Part shown: piece after piece, positions 38 through 7,577 of the stretch
Layout: each line of letters begins with the position of its first letter
Numbering within the stretch: the stretch's first letter is position 1
Origin: Bryobacteraceae bacterium
Lineage (GTDB): Bacteria > Acidobacteriota > Terriglobia > Bryobacterales > Bryobacteraceae
Reading direction: 5' to 3'
NCBI GenBank assembly: GCA_030039005.1
Contig: JASHQT010000206.1
Coordinates: 1 to 7,764 of the forward strand
Length of the DNA stretch: 7,764 bases
The notes under the pieces: generated by a model
Seen by the model: only the letters and a program-made list of their open reading frames with translations
Databases searched by the model: none
What the model was told of the DNA's origin: nothing
Program-made: the position numbers and the translations under genes

Positions 38-382
38 ATGGGGTTGTCGAGAAGAACGTTCACCAAGGAATTTAAGCTGGCCGCGGTGCGGCGGCTGGAA
101 CAAGGGGTTTCCACCGGCGAGGTGGCGCGGGCGTTGGAAGTCAACGCGAACGTGCTGCATCGCTGGCGGCGAGAGTTCCGCCAGGGGCCTGGCAATGTGT
201 TTCCGGGCAACGGCAAGCAGCGTTGGTCCGAAGGGCGGATCGCTGAACTAGAACGAAAAATCGGCCAGCAGGCGCTGGAACTGGATTTTTTGAAGGGGTG
301 CTTGCAGCGCATCGAGGAACAGCGGATGCTGCAGGCATTGACTGGAAAGCCGCGGTCTACCAAAAGGTCCAAGGAGAAATGA
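38..382 (+). CDS. IS3-family transposase OrfA (DNA-binding subunit)
   Basis: The 114-residue product is the small OrfA of an IS3 element. It binds the terminal repeats and, in this family, is joined to OrfB by frameshifting or acts beside it. Residues about 7-50 form the HTH_Tnp_1 helix-turn-helix: a FTKEFKLAAV-type start and a second helix around EVARALEVNANVLHRWRREF. Residues about 66-98 have regular hydrophobic spacing (I68, L71, I75, L82, L85, L89, I92), typical of the leucine zipper used for dimerisation. The start follows AAGGAG at 23-28 with nine bases between. The stop codon overlaps the orfB ATG as ATGA at 379-382. The gene appears intact. Confidence 0.92.
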   Translation: MGLSRRTFTKEFKLAAVRRLEQGVSTGEVARALEVNANVLHRWRREFRQGPGNVFPGNGKQRWSEGRIAELERKIGQQALELDFLKGCLQRIEEQRMLQALTGKPRSTKRSKEK

Positions 383-1022
383 AGGCCGGAGGCAGACTGA
401 CCGGCGAACGTATGGTGAAGCTGGGCCGGGTTTCCCGGTCCGGCTTCTACCGTTTCGCAGACGCCGAACCACAGCCCGATCCGGACATGGACTTGCGCGA
501 CGCGATCCAGAAGATCGCGCTGGAATGGCCCTGTTACGGAAGGCCCCGCATCACCAAGGAACTTCGCGAGCGCGGCTGGAAGGTGAACCCCAAGCGTGTG
601 TACCGGCTGATGGGCGAGGACAACCTGCTGTGCGTGCGCAAGCGCAAGTTCATCGTCACCACCGATTCCAACCACACCCACAAGGTGTATCCGAACCTGG
701 CGCGCGACATGATCCTGACCGCGATCAATCAACTATGGCGGGCCGATATCACCTACATCCGGCTGCGCGATGAGTTCGTCTTTCTGGCGGTGATTCTGGA
801 TGCCTACTCGCGTCGGATCATCGGCTGGGCGCTGGATCGCAACATGGAAGATTCGCTCACCCTGACGGCGCTACGCATGGCGCTGTCGCGGCGCGCAGTC
901 GAGCCCGGTCTGGTGCATCATTCCGACCGCGGGTCGCAGTACGCCAGCAACGATTACACCGACTTGCTCAAAACCAACGGCATCGACATCAGCATGTCGC
1001 GCAAAGGAAATCCTTGGGACAA
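379..1022 (+). pseudogene. IS3-family transposase OrfB, 5' part (split by insertion)
   Basis: These 214 codons hold most of the catalytic OrfB. Residues about 35-85 match the HTH_21 region and about 115 onwards the rve integrase core. Visible catalytic residues are D123 (in RADITYI) and D183 (in HHSDRGSQY); the final Glu lies beyond the insertion, so this half cannot transpose DNA alone. The ATG at 379 was chosen because it overlaps the orfA stop as ATGA and follows AAGGAG at 371-376; the frame is open upstream from about 298, which would also allow a -1 frameshift product, but I see no canonical slippery heptamer. Past 1022 the frame reads into the inserted element and stops at 1191. Confidence 0.9.
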
Positions 1023-1044
1023 GGCTTACGCTTCATACTGCACC
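1021..1044 (+). other. Left attachment half-site of the serine-recombinase element
   Basis: AA at 1021-1022 is the last sequence shared with the predicted uninterrupted orfB; GGCTTACG starts the inserted DNA at 1023. Read on the minus strand from 1044 to 1023, the end begins GGTGCAGT and finishes AAGCC, matching the right end (4340-4361) at 13 of 22 positions. This looks like an arm of a serine-integrase att site flanking an asymmetric AA core. Boundary uncertainty is about one base, because C precedes AA at both junctions. Confidence 0.72.
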
Positions 1045-3116
1045 TCCTGGGAACCGTGCATGATGTTCTCGGGGAAACGACGCCGTTTGGCGAGCTTTAC
1101 TCCTTGTGCCCTGCAAGGTGGATTAGGTCCGGGGTCCTCGTACAGCCAGTCGTCTCTATCGTTGAACGGATGGGCCAGAAGCAGACCGTGATTGCGCCAG
1201 TGAATGACGCATTTGGGAGTGACCCCGAGCCGTTCAGACATTTCCTGAAGCGTCAACAAGCCTTTCTCGCGCAGCCGATCATAACGCGGTTTGAGTTGGT
1301 ATTCACGGCGGAGCCGCGCAACCATGCGACTGTTGAAACGCTGACCGCAGCCGGAGAGGGCTCCGCGTTGGTTCAGAACGTCGACGATCTTTTTGTCGGT
1401 ATAACGATCGGTCAGCCGATCGATCTCGGCGACGACCTCCGCCGGGGTTGTTCTGATCTCCCAAGCCGTCAGCGGTCTCGGTAGTTCCAGCGTCTTCGAG
1501 GCTCCGCCCTTGAATCGAACATGAACCGTGATTCCAGTGCCGCGAAGCAGCGTCACGTCGGCCAGCAGTAGGCGCATCATCCGTTTCCGCTCCCGGTCCG
1601 GCGTCTGGGGATCTTGCCAGAGCCGTGGAAAATCGCTGGCGAGGGCGGCGATGCGGGCGCGCTGCTGTTCATCGATAGCGGTGCGATCCTGCCGCCGCTG
1701 CTGTTCGTACTGTTCCTGGGCCTCGGTTAAGGCCCGGAGCTTTTCGTTCCAGTCTGCCTCCAGCGAGTCGGCAACGAGACGGTTCGCAGGATCGACATGA
1801 AGGTAGCGGCGCTGAGCCAGGTCGGCTTCGTAGCGCGCCCGCTCCACTTGTTTCCTGCGGAGTTGGTCCACCTCCTCGATTCTGGCCTGGAGTTCTAGCT
1901 GGATAGACAAAGTGACTTCCAGCGCCAGTGGCGCCACGCTTTCCACCAGCAGTTGACCGACGGCGTGATCGATGTGATCTCCGATCACGCGCTGGCACAG
2001 CGAAATGGCATGTTCGATTCCGTCGCGCTGGCAGACGTATTCGGGCACCAGCCGGTCCCGGCGTGTGTGGTACCGAACCGTCATTCGGCTGCCGCATACC
2101 CCGCAGACTACCAAGCCCTGCAGCAATGCCGGGCCCTCGCGTGGTGGACTCTTGCGACGATCCGCGCCGACGGCTTGAGCGTTTTCCCGGAGGCGGAGCA
2201 GATTCTCTTCATACTGTGCCCAGGTGATGTAGCCGGGGTGAGCGTCCTGGAATAGCATCCACTGCTCGCGCGGTAACTTGGTGTGGGAAGTGCCTCCGTT
2301 AGGGTGGTTGCGAGTACGGCTGCGACCGTAGACGAATGCGCCCGCGTAACGAGGATTGTGCAGAATGTGCAGTGCCCGGCTGTGCGGGAGTTCGGCCCAC
2401 ACCAGATCGCCTTTATTCGGCCCTTTCTTTAACCGGCGTGGAAACAGAAGCGCCTTTTGGCGGAACGCCTTGACCACCGCGCACGCCGAAGCGGTCCGCC
2501 GGAATGTATCGAAAAAGAAGCGAATGCTCTGCTGCACTTGTTGGTCGGGGTCCAACACCGGCTGATTGCTGGCGTTATAGAGAAAGCCCACCGGTAAGGG
2601 GCATTGCAACTCGCCACGGCGAGCTTTGTTCAGGATTCCACCTTGCAGGCGCGCCCGGAGCACATGCAGCTCGGCTTCACTCATGGTTCCTTTCAGGCCC
2701 AACAGAAGACGATCGTTGAAGTGCGAGGGATCATACACGCCATCTTCATCCAGAATGAGCGTGTCGGTCAGAGCGCAGATCTCTAACAGCCGGTGCCAGT
2801 CCGTGGAGTTTCGCGCCAGGCGGGAAACCTCCAGGCCCAGCACGATGCCAGCTTTGCCCAGACCGACTTCGGTAACCAGCTTCTGAAAGCCTTCCCGATC
2901 GACAGCCGATGCTCCGGACTGCCCCAGATCGGTGTCGATAACGATGATGCGTTCCACAGCCCAGCCCAACGCGACCGCATGTTGGCGGAGACCATACTGC
3001 CGCTTGGTACTCTCGGTATTTTCAAAAACCTGGCGCAACGTCGATTGGCGGACGTAAAGATAGGCGTTTCGCTTGAGGTGGCCCGCGTTCACTTTTTGGT
3101 GTGCGTCGCCTGTCAT
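1026..3116 (-). CDS. Large serine recombinase (resolvase/invertase family, integrase type)
   Basis: The 696-residue product should cut and rejoin DNA through a covalent phosphoserine link, moving the element between circle and chromosome. The N-terminal resolvase domain (about 18-160) shows the nucleophile Ser25 in YVRQST, with R23, R99 and R102 (VSRLAR) as expected catalytic arginines. The Recombinase domain follows (about 172-265, PVGFLY to YAGAFVYG). A zinc ribbon has C338, C341, C362 and C374. A coiled coil runs about 400-490, as in integrases that control direction. The tail has a probable extra helix-turn-helix at about 620-660 (LTLQEMSERLGVTP), unusual for phage integrases. ATG overlaps the orf3 stop as ATGA, implying coupling. 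The stop lies three bases inside the element's left end. All key residues are present. Confidence 0.93.
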   Translation of the reverse strand: MTGDAHQKVNAGHLKRNAYLYVRQSTLRQVFENTESTKRQYGLRQHAVALGWAVERIIVIDTDLGQSGASAVDREGFQKLVTEVGLGKAGIVLGLEVSRLARNSTDWHRLLEICALTDTLILDEDGVYDPSHFNDRLLLGLKGTMSEAELHVLRARLQGGILNKARRGELQCPLPVGFLYNASNQPVLDPDQQVQQSIRFFFDTFRRTASACAVVKAFRQKALLFPRRLKKGPNKGDLVWAELPHSRALHILHNPRYAGAFVYGRSRTRNHPNGGTSHTKLPREQWMLFQDAHPGYITWAQYEENLLRLRENAQAVGADRRKSPPREGPALLQGLVVCGVCGSRMTVRYHTRRDRLVPEYVCQRDGIEHAISLCQRVIGDHIDHAVGQLLVESVAPLALEVTLSIQLELQARIEEVDQLRRKQVERARYEADLAQRRYLHVDPANRLVADSLEADWNEKLRALTEAQEQYEQQRRQDRTAIDEQQRARIAALASDFPRLWQDPQTPDRERKRMMRLLLADVTLLRGTGITVHVRFKGGASKTLELPRPLTAWEIRTTPAEVVAEIDRLTDRYTDKKIVDVLNQRGALSGCGQRFNSRMVARLRREYQLKPRYDRLREKGLLTLQEMSERLGVTPKCVIHWRNHGLLLAHPFNDRDDWLYEDPGPNPPCRAQGVKLAKRRRFPENIMHGSQEVQYEA

Positions 3117-3406
3117 GAGTTTCCCTCCTGTTGGACGCAGAGAATCATGCCGGCCAGCAATGTGGCGATCTGTGATCGCAGGCCGGCTGGAATCGGTTCA
3201 TCGACACCAGCCGTCGCCCGGATACCTGGTTCGATGGGGGGAGCGCATTCCGACCAAGCCTGCATCCAGGCGGTCATTCCGCGTCGGACAAAAAGCGCCA
3301 AGCCCAAGCCTTCTCCGCGGTGGGCCAGCGTTCCTATAGCATCGCGCCGCAGCTGCTCGTACTTGGCAACCAGATCCTGACGAGTGGCCGATGCAGGCTC
3401 GTTCAG
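3113..3406 (-). CDS. Unknown 97-residue protein between HTH and recombinase genes (orf3)
   Basis: I do not recognise this protein. It runs from NEPASATRQDLVAKYEQLRR to QQEGNS. Residues about 10-22 look helical and charged, and the C-terminal third has a hydrophobic stretch (SQIATLLAGMILCV) too short to be a confident membrane segment. The stop overlaps the recombinase ATG as ATGA at 3113-3116, so the two are probably coupled. No ATG, GTG or TTG starts the frame near the HTH stop. CTG at 3406-3404 overlaps that stop as CTGA and would be a rare start; alternatively the frame is entered by a -1 slip at the A8 run just upstream, giving a 249-residue fusion with the HTH protein. A role as accessory or directionality factor is a guess from position only. 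Confidence 0.7.
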   Translation of the reverse strand: MNEPASATRQDLVAKYEQLRRDAIGTLAHRGEGLGLALFVRRGMTAWMQAWSECAPPIEPGIRATAGVDEPIPAGLRSQIATLLAGMILCVQQEGNS

Positions 3407-3861
3407 CGGAGTTTTTTTTGATGACGCAGTAAACCGCGTTCGATGCTTCGTGGATGAACCTTCGTGCCGAAGCGTTCCTGGATTAGCCTCACCAGATCCG
3501 GCAAACGCACGGATGGCTCCTTCTGCCGCGTCTCCACAATGAACGTAAGAACTTCTTCGGTAAGTTTGTGCGCCTGCTTTGGACCGCGCTTGTGCGGCAC
3601 CAGACCAGCCAGGCCGTCTTGCTGGAAGGCGGATAGCGCCTGATAGAAAGATGGTCGCGAAAAACCGAAGTTGGCAGCCGCATCCGTCACAGACCGGCCT
3701 TCGGTCCGCACGCGGCGCAGCATCTCGTACTTGACCTGGACCTGATCGCGAGGATCGAAAAAGTCGTCCTGGAGAAACAGCTCGTCGCGGACATCTTTGG
3801 GGCGCGGGTTCAATGTCCCCTGCTGTTGGAGCGTCCCGAGCTTGGCATCTTTGCCGGCCAT
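3403..3861 (-). CDS. Helix-turn-helix DNA-binding protein of the inserted element
   Basis: The 152-residue product has two likely helix-turn-helix units, as in the paired-like DNA-binding halves of IS630/Tc1-type transposases. The first is at about 42-92 (EGRSVTDAAANFGFSRPSFYQAL, then a GLVPHKRGP linker) and the second at about 100-147 (LPDLVRLIQERFGTKVHPRSI). No catalytic domain follows, so it probably binds DNA only, either as a regulator of the element or as a partner for the recombinase. It is the first gene behind the strong promoter at 3899-3927, about 30 bases downstream of the expected transcript start. No clear Shine-Dalgarno lies before the ATG. The 3' end carries eight consecutive A codon bases that may cause frameshifting into orf3. 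Confidence 0.85.
   Translation of the reverse strand: MAGKDAKLGTLQQQGTLNPRPKDVRDELFLQDDFFDPRDQVQVKYEMLRRVRTEGRSVTDAAANFGFSRPSFYQALSAFQQDGLAGLVPHKRGPKQAHKLTEEVLTFIVETRQKEPSVRLPDLVRLIQERFGTKVHPRSIERGLLRHQKKLR
3404..3420 (-). promoter_or_regulatory. Possible -1 ribosomal frameshift site joining the HTH gene to orf3
   Basis: On the minus strand the HTH frame reads CAA AAA AAA CTC CGC TGA. This contains A_AAA_AAA, a canonical X_XXY_YYZ heptamer in the right phase, with eight A in all. A -1 slip continues as ACT CCG CTG AAC into orf3, which lacks a standard start codon. I see no obvious upstream Shine-Dalgarno-like stimulator. A polymerase-slippage product or simple coupling at CTGA are alternatives. 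Confidence 0.45.
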
Positions 3862-3898
3862 GAGTGTCTCGCCAACTCTCGAACAGATCCGTAAGGAT

Positions 3899-3927
3899 AA
3901 TTATGCTCCAATCAACGCCGATGTCAA
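3899..3927 (-). promoter_or_regulatory. Sigma-70-type promoter for HTH, orf3 and recombinase
   Basis: On the minus strand TTGACA (3927-3922) and ATAATT (3904-3899) are separated by exactly 17 bases. The -35 is a perfect consensus and the -10 is close to consensus. Transcription would begin near 3892, about 30 bases before the HTH ATG at 3861. It is the best promoter match I noticed in the window. Confidence 0.7.
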
Positions 3928-3982
3928 GCTGTTTTTGCCGTTCTGGAGCTGTGATTACGGGCGTGTATTCGACATTTACTAC

Positions 3983-3996
3983 TCGCCACGGTGTAG
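3983..3996 (+). repeat. Internal near copy of the element's right-end sequence
   Basis: TCGCCA followed by CGGTGTAG here recurs at 4331-4346 as TCGCCA, TG, CGGTGTAG: all 14 bases match with a two-base gap. The GGTGTAG part is also in the terminal inverted repeat of the element, so this may be an accessory binding site for the recombinase or the HTH protein. Confidence 0.45.
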
Positions 3997-4071
3997 CAAT
4001 CCAACTGCGGCTCGGCATGATTCCCTTTACACATACGGCGTTATTGTCTTTACACTCCGAACCCCGCGCTT

Positions 4072-4337
4072 TCATCGCGCCTTCTCCAGCAAGTCAGCCA
4101 GCTTTAACAGATCCTCATAACGAAACAGGCACCGACCGGCGGCTAACATCACGAATGGATCTGCCGCCACCACCGTTGTCCAGCACGCCGGAATCGAGCG
4201 TAGGTGGCCGTCGCCAGCGTGGAAGTAAACTCGATCCTCACCCCAGTTGTGACGATAAGTCACCAGCTTGAACCGCTCGCCTCTCAGTGGATGATGTGGG
4301 TGGATGACTTCAAACGTGGTGTCGGCATGGTCGCCAT
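4072..4337 (-). pseudogene. DUF5372-like gene, broken by a one-base frameshift near its 5' end
   Basis: From memory of DUF5372 proteins (a start like THP.HPLRGREF followed by VTYRHNWGEDRVYF), this 88-codon gene belongs to that family of unknown function. Frame one reads MATMPTPR from ATG at 4337-4335; the rest, FEVIHPHHPLRGERFKL then VTYRHNWGEDRVYF to LADLLEKAR, lies one frame away. Adding one T to the TTT at 4314-4312 would restore a continuous 88-residue product. Without it translation from ATG ends within 17 codons. The downstream frame has a GTG at 4263 that would give only 63 residues. The stop is at 4072-4074. The lesion could be a real mutation or a sequencing error. No Shine-Dalgarno or promoter is visible upstream. 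Confidence 0.75.
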
Positions 4338-4339
4338 GC

Positions 4340-4363
4340 GGTGTAGTTGACGGCCCAGGCCAA
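4340..4363 (+). other. Right attachment half-site of the serine-recombinase element
   Basis: The inserted DNA ends with GGTGTAGT (4340-4347) and a GC-rich stretch to 4361, followed by the shared AA at 4362-4363 where orfB resumes. Joined in a circle with the left end (1023-1044), it would make a 46-base site of two 22-base imperfectly inverted arms around AA. Thirteen of 22 arm positions match, including GGTG and AGT at the outer ends and GCC next to the core. Confidence 0.72.
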
Positions 4364-4565
4364 CGCCGCCTGCGAGTCGTTCATGAAAACGCTCAAGTAC
4401 GAAGAAGTGCTGCGCAACGACTACCGGGACTTGGCCGAGGCGCGCGCGTCGATTCGCCAGTTCCTGGAAAAGATCTACAACCACAAGCGGCTGCATTCGG
4501 CGCTCGGCTACGTGCCGCCCGCCCGATTCGAAAAGGATGCCGCTGCGCGGCAGCTCTCTTTATGA
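4362..4565 (+). pseudogene. IS3-family transposase OrfB, 3' part with the catalytic Glu
   Basis: The frame resumes as NAACESFMKTLKYEEV and ends RQLSL, with the HKRLHSALGY signature typical of IS3 OrfB C-termini. The Glu of CESF is residue 219 of the restored protein, 35 residues after D183, as the D,D(35)E family requires. Joining 1022 to 4364 gives 846 bases, 281 residues plus stop, the usual OrfB length. Alone this fragment has no start signal and no function. Four apparent extra codons upstream of NAAC come from the inserted DNA. Confidence 0.9.
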
Positions 4566-4944: not shown

Positions 4945-4989
4945 GGCGGTGGAGTTCGCCTATCGTCGCTGAGCGACCAATGACTCCTG
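4945..4989 (+). ncRNA. Fluoride (crcB-motif) riboswitch-like aptamer, copy 1, upstream of ilvD
   Basis: P1 pairs GGCG (4945-4948) with CGCC (4957-4960) around the loop GTGGAGTT. P2 pairs GTCGC (4965-4969) with GCGAC (4973-4977). CAATGACTCCTG (4978-4989) follows, and its ACTCC (4983-4987) pairs with the loop GGAGT (4951-4955), forming the pseudoknot; U4956 and G4982 can add a wobble pair. This is the known layout of the crcB-motif fluoride aptamer, including the U-G and A-U-G segments that hold the ligand site. Counterparts of A6 and U38 in the Thermotoga petrophila structure are G4949 and C4978. AGGAG at 5007-5011 could compete for the CTCCT strand. The ilvD ATG is 205 bases downstream; no terminator is evident. 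Confidence 0.75.
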
Positions 4990-5193
4990 GAATCGGCATG
5001 TTGGCGAGGAGGATCGGTCGTGCTTCCAGAAGGATCCTTAAGAAAGTTCACAGTCCACGAAAACCAGGACACATCCTTTCATACAGTCCGGTTGTGGAGG
5101 CCTGACTCCGATTGCCTAAGGCATTAGAACATCGCGATGCCACTTTGTACCTGATGAGGCGGCGAGGATTTCACTTTTCTTTCCGTTAACACG
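4990..5193 (+). other. Long leader between aptamer copy 1 and ilvD
   Basis: No credible gene lies here. Several small hairpins are possible: GGATC (5011-5015) with GATCC (5033-5037), GGAC (5067-5070) with GTCC (5086-5089), GGAG (5097-5100) with CTCC (5106-5109), and TGCCT with AGGCA (5115-5125). None has a U-run. The 15 bases before the ilvD ATG contain no Shine-Dalgarno. Confidence 0.45.
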
Positions 5194-6873
5194 ATGCCCA
5201 ATAATCTCAACAAATATAGCTCACAGATCACGCAGCCTAAGTCTCAAGGAGCCTCCCAGGCGATGCTGTACGCCACCGGACTTCGGGACGAAGACATGGA
5301 TAAGGCTCAAGTTGGAATCGCGAGCGTCTGGTTCGAGGGCAACCCATGCAACATGCATCTTTTGACGCTTGCCGAGGAAGTAAAGAAAGGCGTTGCTAGC
5401 GCCGGGCTGATCGGCTTCCGATTCAATACGATTGGCATGAGTGACGGGATTGCAATGGGCACGGATGGTATGAGCTTCTCGCTCCAATCGCGGGAACTGA
5501 TCGCCGATTCGATTGAAACCGTCATGAGCGGTCAATGGTATGACGCCAATATCTCCATTCCGGGTTGTGACAAGAACATGCCTGGATGCATTATTGCCAT
5601 GGGGCGGCTTAATCGCCCGGCGCTGATGATTTATGGCGGAACGATCCATGCAGGTCACCTCAATGGGGAAAGACTAGACGTCGTTTCCGCATTCCAAAGC
5701 TACGGCCAGTACATCGCGGGAACCATCGGAGAAACCGAGCGACGGGACATCGTGCGTCACTCTTGCCCGGGGGCCGGCGCTTGTGGAGGTATGTACACCG
5801 CTAATACGATGGCCTCCGCGATCGAGGCGCTCGGCATGTTATTACCCTACAGCGCCTCCACACCGGCTGAAGATCCCCAAAAACTTGATGAGTGCCTCCG
5901 CTCTGGAGCCGCGATTAAGAATCTCTTGGAACTCGACCTGAAGCCGCGTGACATCATGACGCGAGAGGCGTTCGAGAATGCGATTGTGTTGGTCACGGTT
6001 CTCGGCGGCTCAACGAACGCAGTTCTGCACTTGATTGCCATGGCGCGATCTGTGGGTGTCCAGTTGAGCATTGACGATTTTCAGAGCGTCAGTGATCGTG
6101 TGCCTCTCCTAGCAGATTTTCGACCGAGTGGACCCTACGTAATGGAAGACCTTCATGCCGTCGGAGGCATTCCCGCCGTGATCAAGATGTTGCTCGATGA
6201 AGGATGCTTCCATGGGGACTGCATCACGGTAACCGGCAGGACTATTCGAGAAAATGTGAAAGATCTCCCAGGGCTAAAGGTGGAACAACAGGTCGTACGG
6301 CCTTTCTCAAACCCTCTAAAGAAGACCGGGCACCTCCAAATCTTGAAAGGGAACCTCGCGCCGGATGGTGCCGTGGCTAAGATCACGGGCAAGGAAGGGC
6401 TGCGCTTCTCCGGCCCTGCCAAAGTCTACGATTCCGAAGAAGAGATGCTCCGCGCCCTCGAAGCCAACGAGATCCAGCGGGGCGATGTCATCGTAATACG
6501 ATACGAGGGACCGAAGGGGGGCCCAGGCATGCCTGAAATGCTAACCCCGACCTCTGCTATTGTCGGCGCGGGATTGGGGAAAGACGTCGCGCTGATCACG
6601 GACGGTCGTTTCTCAGGTGGTTCCCACGGATTTATCGTCGCCCACGTCACCCCGGAAGCACAGGATGGTGGTCCGATTGCGGTCATCCAGACCGGAGATC
6701 GAATCGTCATCGATGCAGAGCAGAACTTGCTAAAAGTTGATATTTCGAGCCTTGAGTTAGCCGATCGCCAAAAACGTTGGCGGATGCCACCATACAAAGC
6801 CACTCGAGGCACCCTTGCGAAATACATTCACCTTGTGAAGAGCGCCAGCCTTGGATGCGTGACTGATGAGTAA
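5194..6873 (+). CDS. ilvD: Dihydroxy-acid dehydratase
   Basis: The 559-residue enzyme converts 2,3-dihydroxy-isovalerate and dihydroxy-methylvalerate to the 2-oxo acids in cytoplasmic valine and isoleucine synthesis, also feeding leucine and pantothenate. Length is normal for the short IlvD type. Iron-sulphur ligands are expected at C52 (EGNPCNMH), C125 (PGCDKNMPG) and C197 ([16 protein letters not shown]); their 73/72 spacing matches the [2Fe-2S] plant and mycobacterial enzymes. D126 and K127 are the usual magnesium-binding and carbamylated residues. The active-site SGGSHG is at 474-479. ATG 5194 was chosen because the family N-terminus fits and an upstream ATG at 5154 is out of frame and soon stops. 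No Shine-Dalgarno is visible. The enzyme looks intact. It lies behind a fluoride-type aptamer and is followed, 63 bases on, by a small gene on the same strand. Confidence 0.97.
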
Positions 6874-6936: not shown

Positions 6937-7263
6937 GTGCCGAACTATCAAATTCATCGCCTGCAGGAATCCCAGCTGAAGAAGTTTCGCTGGGAGCCTC
7001 ACACGTCGGGGCGTGCCACCGCCAAGCCGACGGATTACACTCCCGGGATTTCGATAGAGGGTGAATCACCGTACGCTGTCTGGCGCGCTCTACGCGGGAC
7101 GCCAGATGAGTTGCGAGTCGGCGACATCCTGGAGACCTCCAGCGGAGAATTACGAATCTACAAATACGTCGGATTTGAAGAGGCTCGCTGGCTGGTTCCC
7201 GAAGACACGGGCAAATTGGAAACACGACCCGCCAGCGATAAACCCTCGGTGAAAAACATTTGA
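6937..7263 (+). CDS. Unknown 108-residue protein downstream of ilvD
   Basis: I do not assign a function. The product starts MPNYQIHRLQESQLKKFRWEP and contains YKYVGFEEARWLVPE at about residues 80-94, a compact, charged and aromatic-rich pattern that suggests a small soluble domain. There is no signal peptide, membrane segment or cysteine motif. The start is GTG at 6937; no in-frame ATG lies nearby upstream and no Shine-Dalgarno is visible, so the start is uncertain. It follows ilvD by 63 bases with no terminator between, so co-transcription is plausible. The C-terminal 18 residues are polar and probably disordered. Confidence 0.75.
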   Translation: MPNYQIHRLQESQLKKFRWEPHTSGRATAKPTDYTPGISIEGESPYAVWRALRGTPDELRVGDILETSSGELRIYKYVGFEEARWLVPEDTGKLETRPASDKPSVKNI

Positions 7264-7433: not shown

Positions 7434-7482
7434 AGCGGTGGAGTTCGCTCAATACCGCGAGCCATGCGGTCAATGACTCCTG
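7434..7482 (+). ncRNA. Fluoride (crcB-motif) riboswitch-like aptamer, copy 2
   Basis: P1 pairs AGCG (7434-7437) with CGCT (7446-7449) around the loop GTGGAGTT, identical to copy 1. P2 pairs ACCGC (7454-7458) with GCGGT (7466-7470). CAATGACTCCTG (7471-7482) follows, with ACTCC (7476-7480) pairing with loop GGAGT (7440-7444). Relative to copy 1, the outer P1 pair changes G-C to A-U and two P2 pairs change (G-C to A-U, U-A to C-G), while single-stranded parts stay fixed. Such compensatory change supports a functional RNA. Positions equivalent to A6 and U38 are again G (7438) and C (7471). Confidence 0.77.
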
Positions 7483-7577
7483 TAACTAGAATCGTTGCAG
7501 GAGTGACTCTCCTAAGGTAGCTCTTCAGCGGTTCCTGTGAAAATCCGCGTTGGACCTAGCGACAGGCAGGAGCCTTT
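7476..7577 (+). promoter_or_regulatory. Probable expression platform of aptamer copy 2
   Basis: ACTCCTG (7476-7482), needed for the pseudoknot, is also perfectly complementary to CAGGAGT (7498-7504), so the two pairings exclude each other. A second CAGGAG (7567-7572) contains the ribosome binding site of the next gene, and a free CTCCT (7509-7513) could pair with it. This would allow ligand control of translation. No U-rich terminator is present. Confidence 0.5.

Follow-up and report, generated by a model that had tools for sequence, protein, structure and literature searches.

The stretch of DNA analyzed here, referred to as the window, comprises 7,764 nucleotides from a Bryobacteraceae bacterium (contig JASHQT010000206.1) and contains an insertion sequence (IS) whose transposase gene, orfB, is interrupted by a 3,341-bp element encoding a large serine recombinase. 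The element occupies positions 1023..4363, its length being computed from the ends common to close copies. The 5′ piece of orfB (379..1022, plus strand; rve, 5.2e-27) matches positions 102-313 of the NF033516 profile with bases 379-1020. It carries the catalytic residues Asp123 and Asp183, the latter within HHSDRG, and ends with Asp214 and the first two bases, AA, of the codon after it. The 3′ piece (4362..4565, plus strand; rve_3, 1.1e-12) matches positions 314-369 of the same profile, and its fifth residue is the catalytic Glu219 (4374-4376). Since the matched profile positions are adjacent, the two pieces are contiguous, and the insert lies between bases 1022 and 4364, between Asp183 and Glu219. 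The junctions are ambiguous only by the AA shared by both ends (1021-1022 and 4362-4363) and a matching C at 1020/4361. Upstream lies orfA of the same IS (38..382, plus strand; HTH_Tnp_1, 8.8e-16; transpos_IS3, 9.5e-13), which begins 37 bases after the window start, so that the window may not reach the left end of the IS. The overlap of orfA and orfB and a DDE triad with 35 residues between the second Asp and the Glu fit the IS3 family.

An earlier sequence-only reading of the window had proposed a serine-recombinase element of 3.34 kb in IS3 orfB with junctions exact to the base, using the D-35-E spacing as a ruler. The ruler holds, the contiguous profile matches and shared ends bear out the proposal, and we regard the insert as confirmed and correct to the base. 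That reading had named extra codons at the right junction of close IS3 relatives, and copies of the insert with different ends, as observations that would speak against it. Instead, in a comparison with the best 120 of at least 8,000 scored relatives of the orfB 5′ piece, the two pieces abut with a 0-residue gap in 116 of the 120 transposases listed, and close copies of the insert have identical ends, with ...CCTT next to the recombinase and TTGG-N8-GTCAACT at the opposite end. Three of the other listed proteins (P0130, P0197, and P0237) are IS3 proteins whose sequence passes, at the same residue, into an insert of this kind at its antisense end, and one (P0180, 220 aa) ends shortly past the insertion site. 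The empty site of the window's own IS is thus seen on protein relatives, at most 94% identical over the 5′ piece; empty sites at the DNA level come from other IS.

The element carries four genes, all antisense to the interrupted transposase. For three of them, counts among the 82 relatives described below were obtained by tblastn, with some contigs cut short. The recombinase (696 aa; 1026..3116, minus strand) has Resolvase, Recombinase, and zinc-ribbon domains (Pfam). It is followed by a small open reading frame of uncertain start (3113..~3448, minus strand), which has a match in 71 of the 82 relatives and none in Pfam or NCBIfam. A helix-turn-helix (HTH) protein (3403..3861, minus strand; HTH_28, 1e-11; transpos_IS481, 3.2e-14), found in 80 of the 82, resembles the DNA-binding half of IS481/IS630 transposases. 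The last gene encodes a DUF5372 protein (4072..~4317, minus strand; PF17342, 1.3e-16 on 4072-4263), found in 77 of the 82. Its frame (window 4072-4363) is open towards the element end, and the true start is unclear: inside the element there is no ATG, GTG, or TTG before the conserved beginning, though the domain is kept in relatives. The confidently predicted structure (pLDDT 91.3, pTM 0.62) is a small beta structure with C-terminal helices. Comparison of this model with the PDB gave weak structural matches only; as the best has an E-value of 0.084, we claim no function for the protein.

Relatives of the element were gathered by their recombinase alone, without regard to flanking sequence, using a profile built from 20 recombinases. 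The survey set consists of the best 80 of 143 confirmed genome loci and two viral loci, giving 82 relatives (L001-L082), or 83 loci with the window. The record titles of the 80 genome loci name 16 phyla, labels that come mostly from metagenome bins, so that individual assignments could be mistaken. Viral contigs yielded just the two relatives, one of them distant (40%), which gives no support for a phage vehicle. The left junction counts as readable where a left end is recognized and the flank is 30 bases or longer, which holds for 62 of the 83 loci including the window; the 21 others lack such an end or have a shorter flank. Junction counts use a tight left-end pattern, since looser ones missed or mis-set ends; the tight pattern itself mis-sets L043 and probably L069, whose other flank is still transposase-like.

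In 51 of the 62 loci, the core AA opens an Asn or Lys codon four residues before a Glu, in a frame antisense to the recombinase. The Glu is the fifth residue from the core in all of these, which represent 48 distinct flanks; with AA as the core, the first residue must be N or K. Among the 17 recombinases nearest to the window's, all 15 loci with a left junction share this codon position. What the sequence-only reading had taken for a single landing proves to be the target shared by the lineage in several IS families. Taken by itself, the window is compatible with an ordinary serine-recombinase transposon that landed by chance in one IS3 copy. We find this scarcely credible, given that 51 of 62 loci, collected regardless of their flanks, share one codon position and that three more IS3 proteins are interrupted at the same residue by an insert of this kind.

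Profile scans of the flanks, in which one protein may match several families, assigned the interrupted genes to several IS families. Before the core (n = 59), matches were to members of IS481 (25), IS3 (24), IS21 (12), ISNCY (9), IS630 (9), and IS66 (2); after the core (n = 54), they were to IS481 (26), IS3 (23), IS21 (16), ISNCY (6), IS66 (3), and IS630 (1). Single-locus scans place the break at one and the same profile position within each family: 313|314 in IS3, 226|227 in IS21, 228|229 in IS481, after 235 in ISNCY, and after 329 in IS66. The IS3 break was found at L003, L007, L008, L015, L020, L025, and L030, and from the other side at L013 and L021; at L005 the local profile match stops earlier than the family break position. 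At L013 (ISNCY ahead of the core, IS3 behind it) and L068 (judged by eye), the two flanks belong to different transposase families, which could reflect exchange between element copies or mis-assembly.

The distribution of targets over the recombinases bears on a further explanation, in which the element entered a single IS once, long ago, and has since been inherited and spread together with it rather than by targeting such sites repeatedly. The window, L001, L003, and L007 are all located in IS3 orfB, as common descent would have it; yet the recombinases of L002 and L004, 87% and 86% identical to the window's over the best segment, lie in ISNCY-type genes (the family assignments of L001 and L002 being made by motif). 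A recombinase tree made by a quick method (80 rows, 28 open branches) requires at least 18 changes of target family over 45 labeled rows, with labels set by us partly from profile matches and partly by motif and 35 rows left unlabeled. Related recombinases in different IS families, together with these changes, indicate that the site was not merely passed down along with a single IS. Some side branches depart from the common pattern. L056 lies within, and L047 and L072 adjoin, IS91-type (Y2/zinc-binding) transposase sequence, the match of L047 being below the Pfam cut-off. The branch of L058, L059, and L060 has different, ACGT-containing ends, and L060 adjoins a DUF3489 gene and no transposase.

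Empty and filled alleles could be compared in two genera. In the Polaromonas genome of L025, the site is uninterrupted in intact IS copies (L086, L087, and a third that appears as L088/L093); in L086, the TT core lies between both flanks, and no scar is present. The element-bearing copies share a unit of ~5.05 kb whose edges are those of the intact copy L101; it is full in L025 (= L105), L103, and L104, and in L026 and L027 it runs to or across assembly gaps. Among the unit copies, the matched length of the transposase flank upstream shows 100% identity, compared with 96-99% in intact copies. No clear target duplication was seen. A further element-bearing Polaromonas copy, L094, has a flank of 79% identity and therefore lies in another IS variant.

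The second case, a locus near noeB on pSymA of Sinorhizobium meliloti, has no IS in strain Rm41, an intact IS21 in ABS7 and CCMM B554, and IS21 plus the element in 1021 and 2011. The ABS7 sequence reads TTTCGCCTT|GTCCCGC, with the element of strain 1021 at the bar. Between these two strains, the IS parts are 96.6% and 98.6% identical and the outer flanks 97.5% and 98.6%, a nearly equal divergence that fits one orthologous IS insertion; the element may have been either gained or lost here. Of the 60 matches listed, from a total of 229 matching records, 28 cover the query from 1119-1132 to 6985-7040, the boundaries of IS21 plus element, and lack the outer flanks found at the 1021 locus; these coordinates were read from the match listing, some in several pieces, and not re-aligned. 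Such recurring units with constant IS edges suggest hitch-hiking of the element with its IS. Common descent can hold for single units, which spread whole in Polaromonas and Sinorhizobium; for the whole lineage it is contradicted by the different IS families that flank different loci, and as a general account we judge it very improbable. The TT core is present in nine of ten intact IS21 copies inspected, the exception, L117, having TG. Altered cores (TG or CT for TT) in the intact copies L117 and L087 are possibly insertion-resistant alleles or plain variation.

The ends of the element have the traits of large serine recombinase attachment sites: a two-base core, no longer target duplication, and symmetric arms. 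When the ends of relatives were aligned, the core dinucleotide AA fell at 1021..1022 on the recombinase side and at 4362..4363 on the DUF5372 side. Arms conserved among the relatives, GGTGCAGT (1037..1044, minus strand) and GGTGTAGT (4340..4347, plus strand), each lie 14 bases from the core. Glu-positive loci have the ends GAGGTGCAGTNTGAAGCGTAGNCC-TT (43 distinct) and TT-GG...GTCAACTGCACC (46 distinct), from which we predict a circle junction of the form GGTGCAGT-N14-TT-N14-ACTGCACC with symmetric arms. Because TT differs from its own complement, orientation would be fixed.

Several observations weigh against targeting of the catalytic codons. Only a few target bases stay constant across the window and L001-L007: C at -8, the AA, G at +3, the first two bases of the Glu codon (GA), and T at +22. 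In the 583 kb of L001-L082, there are 365 occurrences of the pattern C-N7-AA-N-G-N8-GA. DNA recognition alone may accordingly not suffice, and the difference may be made up by weak preferences over a wider stretch, by a factor that directs targeting, or by survivorship. The Glu is missing in 11 of the 62 loci (L043, L053, L055, L056, L059, L060, L062, L069, L079, L081, and L082). No transposase profile was found for L006, L041, and L049 in the single-flank scans tried, and the Glu of L041 may be a chance one. A query with the circle junction of one relative reached at least 80% coverage in none of 72 matching plasmid records.

The scarcity of invariant bases, in a pattern so common in DNA, is what would be expected if the element inserted loosely at many sites and only insertions in dispensable, repeated, and mobile IS genes persisted and spread. 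The amplified IS-plus-element units agree with such survivorship, and multi-targeting large serine recombinases exist, according to the available part of one account (PMC10083194). Under survivorship, insertions should be scattered along transposase genes and face either way, whereas one codon position recurs in 51 of 62 loci and in every readable locus nearest the window; we consider it unlikely.

We therefore think it highly probable that the insert belongs to a widespread serine-recombinase lineage whose usual attachment site is formed by the catalytic-Glu codons ([N/K]-x-x-x-E) of DDE transposases. Sequence comparisons directly show the ends and the core, which codon position is used, the orientation, the range of IS families, the alleles that are empty, and the recurrence of IS-plus-element units. 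The recombinase encoded in the window presumably performs the integration. It would integrate a circular form by exchange at the core, AA on the transposase strand and TT on its own, leaving no duplication beyond these two bases. The element would thereby enter antisense into the catalytic-motif codons and split the enzyme four residues before the catalytic Glu; the accessory HTH and DUF5372 proteins might act in direction or targeting, roles that are guesses. Precise excision, which the sequence-only reading had linked to reversible silencing of the IS, would restore the transposase; filled and empty alleles exist, which could reflect either gain or loss of the element. The crippled IS keeps its ends and could travel via intact copies acting in trans, with the element carried along. 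In a broader form, which we favor with more reserve, these elements would be phylum-crossing hyperparasites that read the catalytic-Glu codons of at least five IS families through a degenerate site (with side branches at IS91-type genes), disarm the IS, and spread as its cargo in trans. If so, transposons have specialized and widespread parasites with a host range set by an enzyme active site and not by species, which would act as a natural brake on IS activity, offer a source of serine recombinases accepting many related sites, and account for annotated recombinase/HTH/DUF5372 clusters and some broken IS genes.

Downstream of the interrupted IS3, the window contains ilvD (5194-6873). It is flanked by a 20-nt intergenic repeat, GCGACCAATGACTCCTGGAA, at 4973-4992 and 7466-7485 (85% identity in the second copy). 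No Rfam family matched the window at the gathering threshold.

The closest annotated counterpart is a unit on pNGR234a of Sinorhizobium fredii NGR234, with the same genes in the same order (recombinase, "transposase", HTH, and DUF5372) and a recombinase ~54% identical to that of the window; the four genes presumably carry y4b names. The unit splits an ISNCY-type transposase between ...ANTPQA and KGRVER, as read by eye, its right end having been missed by the end pattern. The record annotates the genes without an element, ends, or target, and the host IS family differs from that of the window. Among well-known enzymes, we take PhiC31, Bxb1, and TndX to represent the class of large serine recombinases and integrases to which the window's protein compares. 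The element shares with such recombinases the Resolvase, Recombinase, and Zn-ribbon domains, the two-base core, and the symmetric arms, and differs in its target, a protein-coding catalytic motif common to several IS families. DUF4368, a domain frequent in a multi-targeting recombinase clade according to the available part of PMC10083194, was unmatched in the window recombinase in our Pfam scan. That account, as far as its available part goes, describes multi-targeting serine recombinases and target-gene enrichment, with no transposase targets among them. Transposases of the IS607 family have an N-terminal DNA-binding domain before the catalytic domain and are found with tnpB. The window's recombinase begins with the resolvase domain, followed by Recombinase and zinc ribbon, and the gene content also differs, so the element does not belong to that family, which it resembles in having a serine recombinase in a small element (PMC4058570, in its available part). 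Serine-recombinase elements are thus already known as a kind; homing to the catalytic motif of transposases across IS families would be a variant for which we found no description in the open literature, a search with subscription journals, supplements, and ISfinder outside its scope that does not establish priority. Homing endonuclease introns and inteins exploit codons that a host protein can hardly change without losing function. The element would likewise exploit codons that its host protein can hardly alter; unlike these introns and inteins, it relies on a serine recombinase, involves no RNA or protein splicing, and leaves the host gene inactive while it is present.

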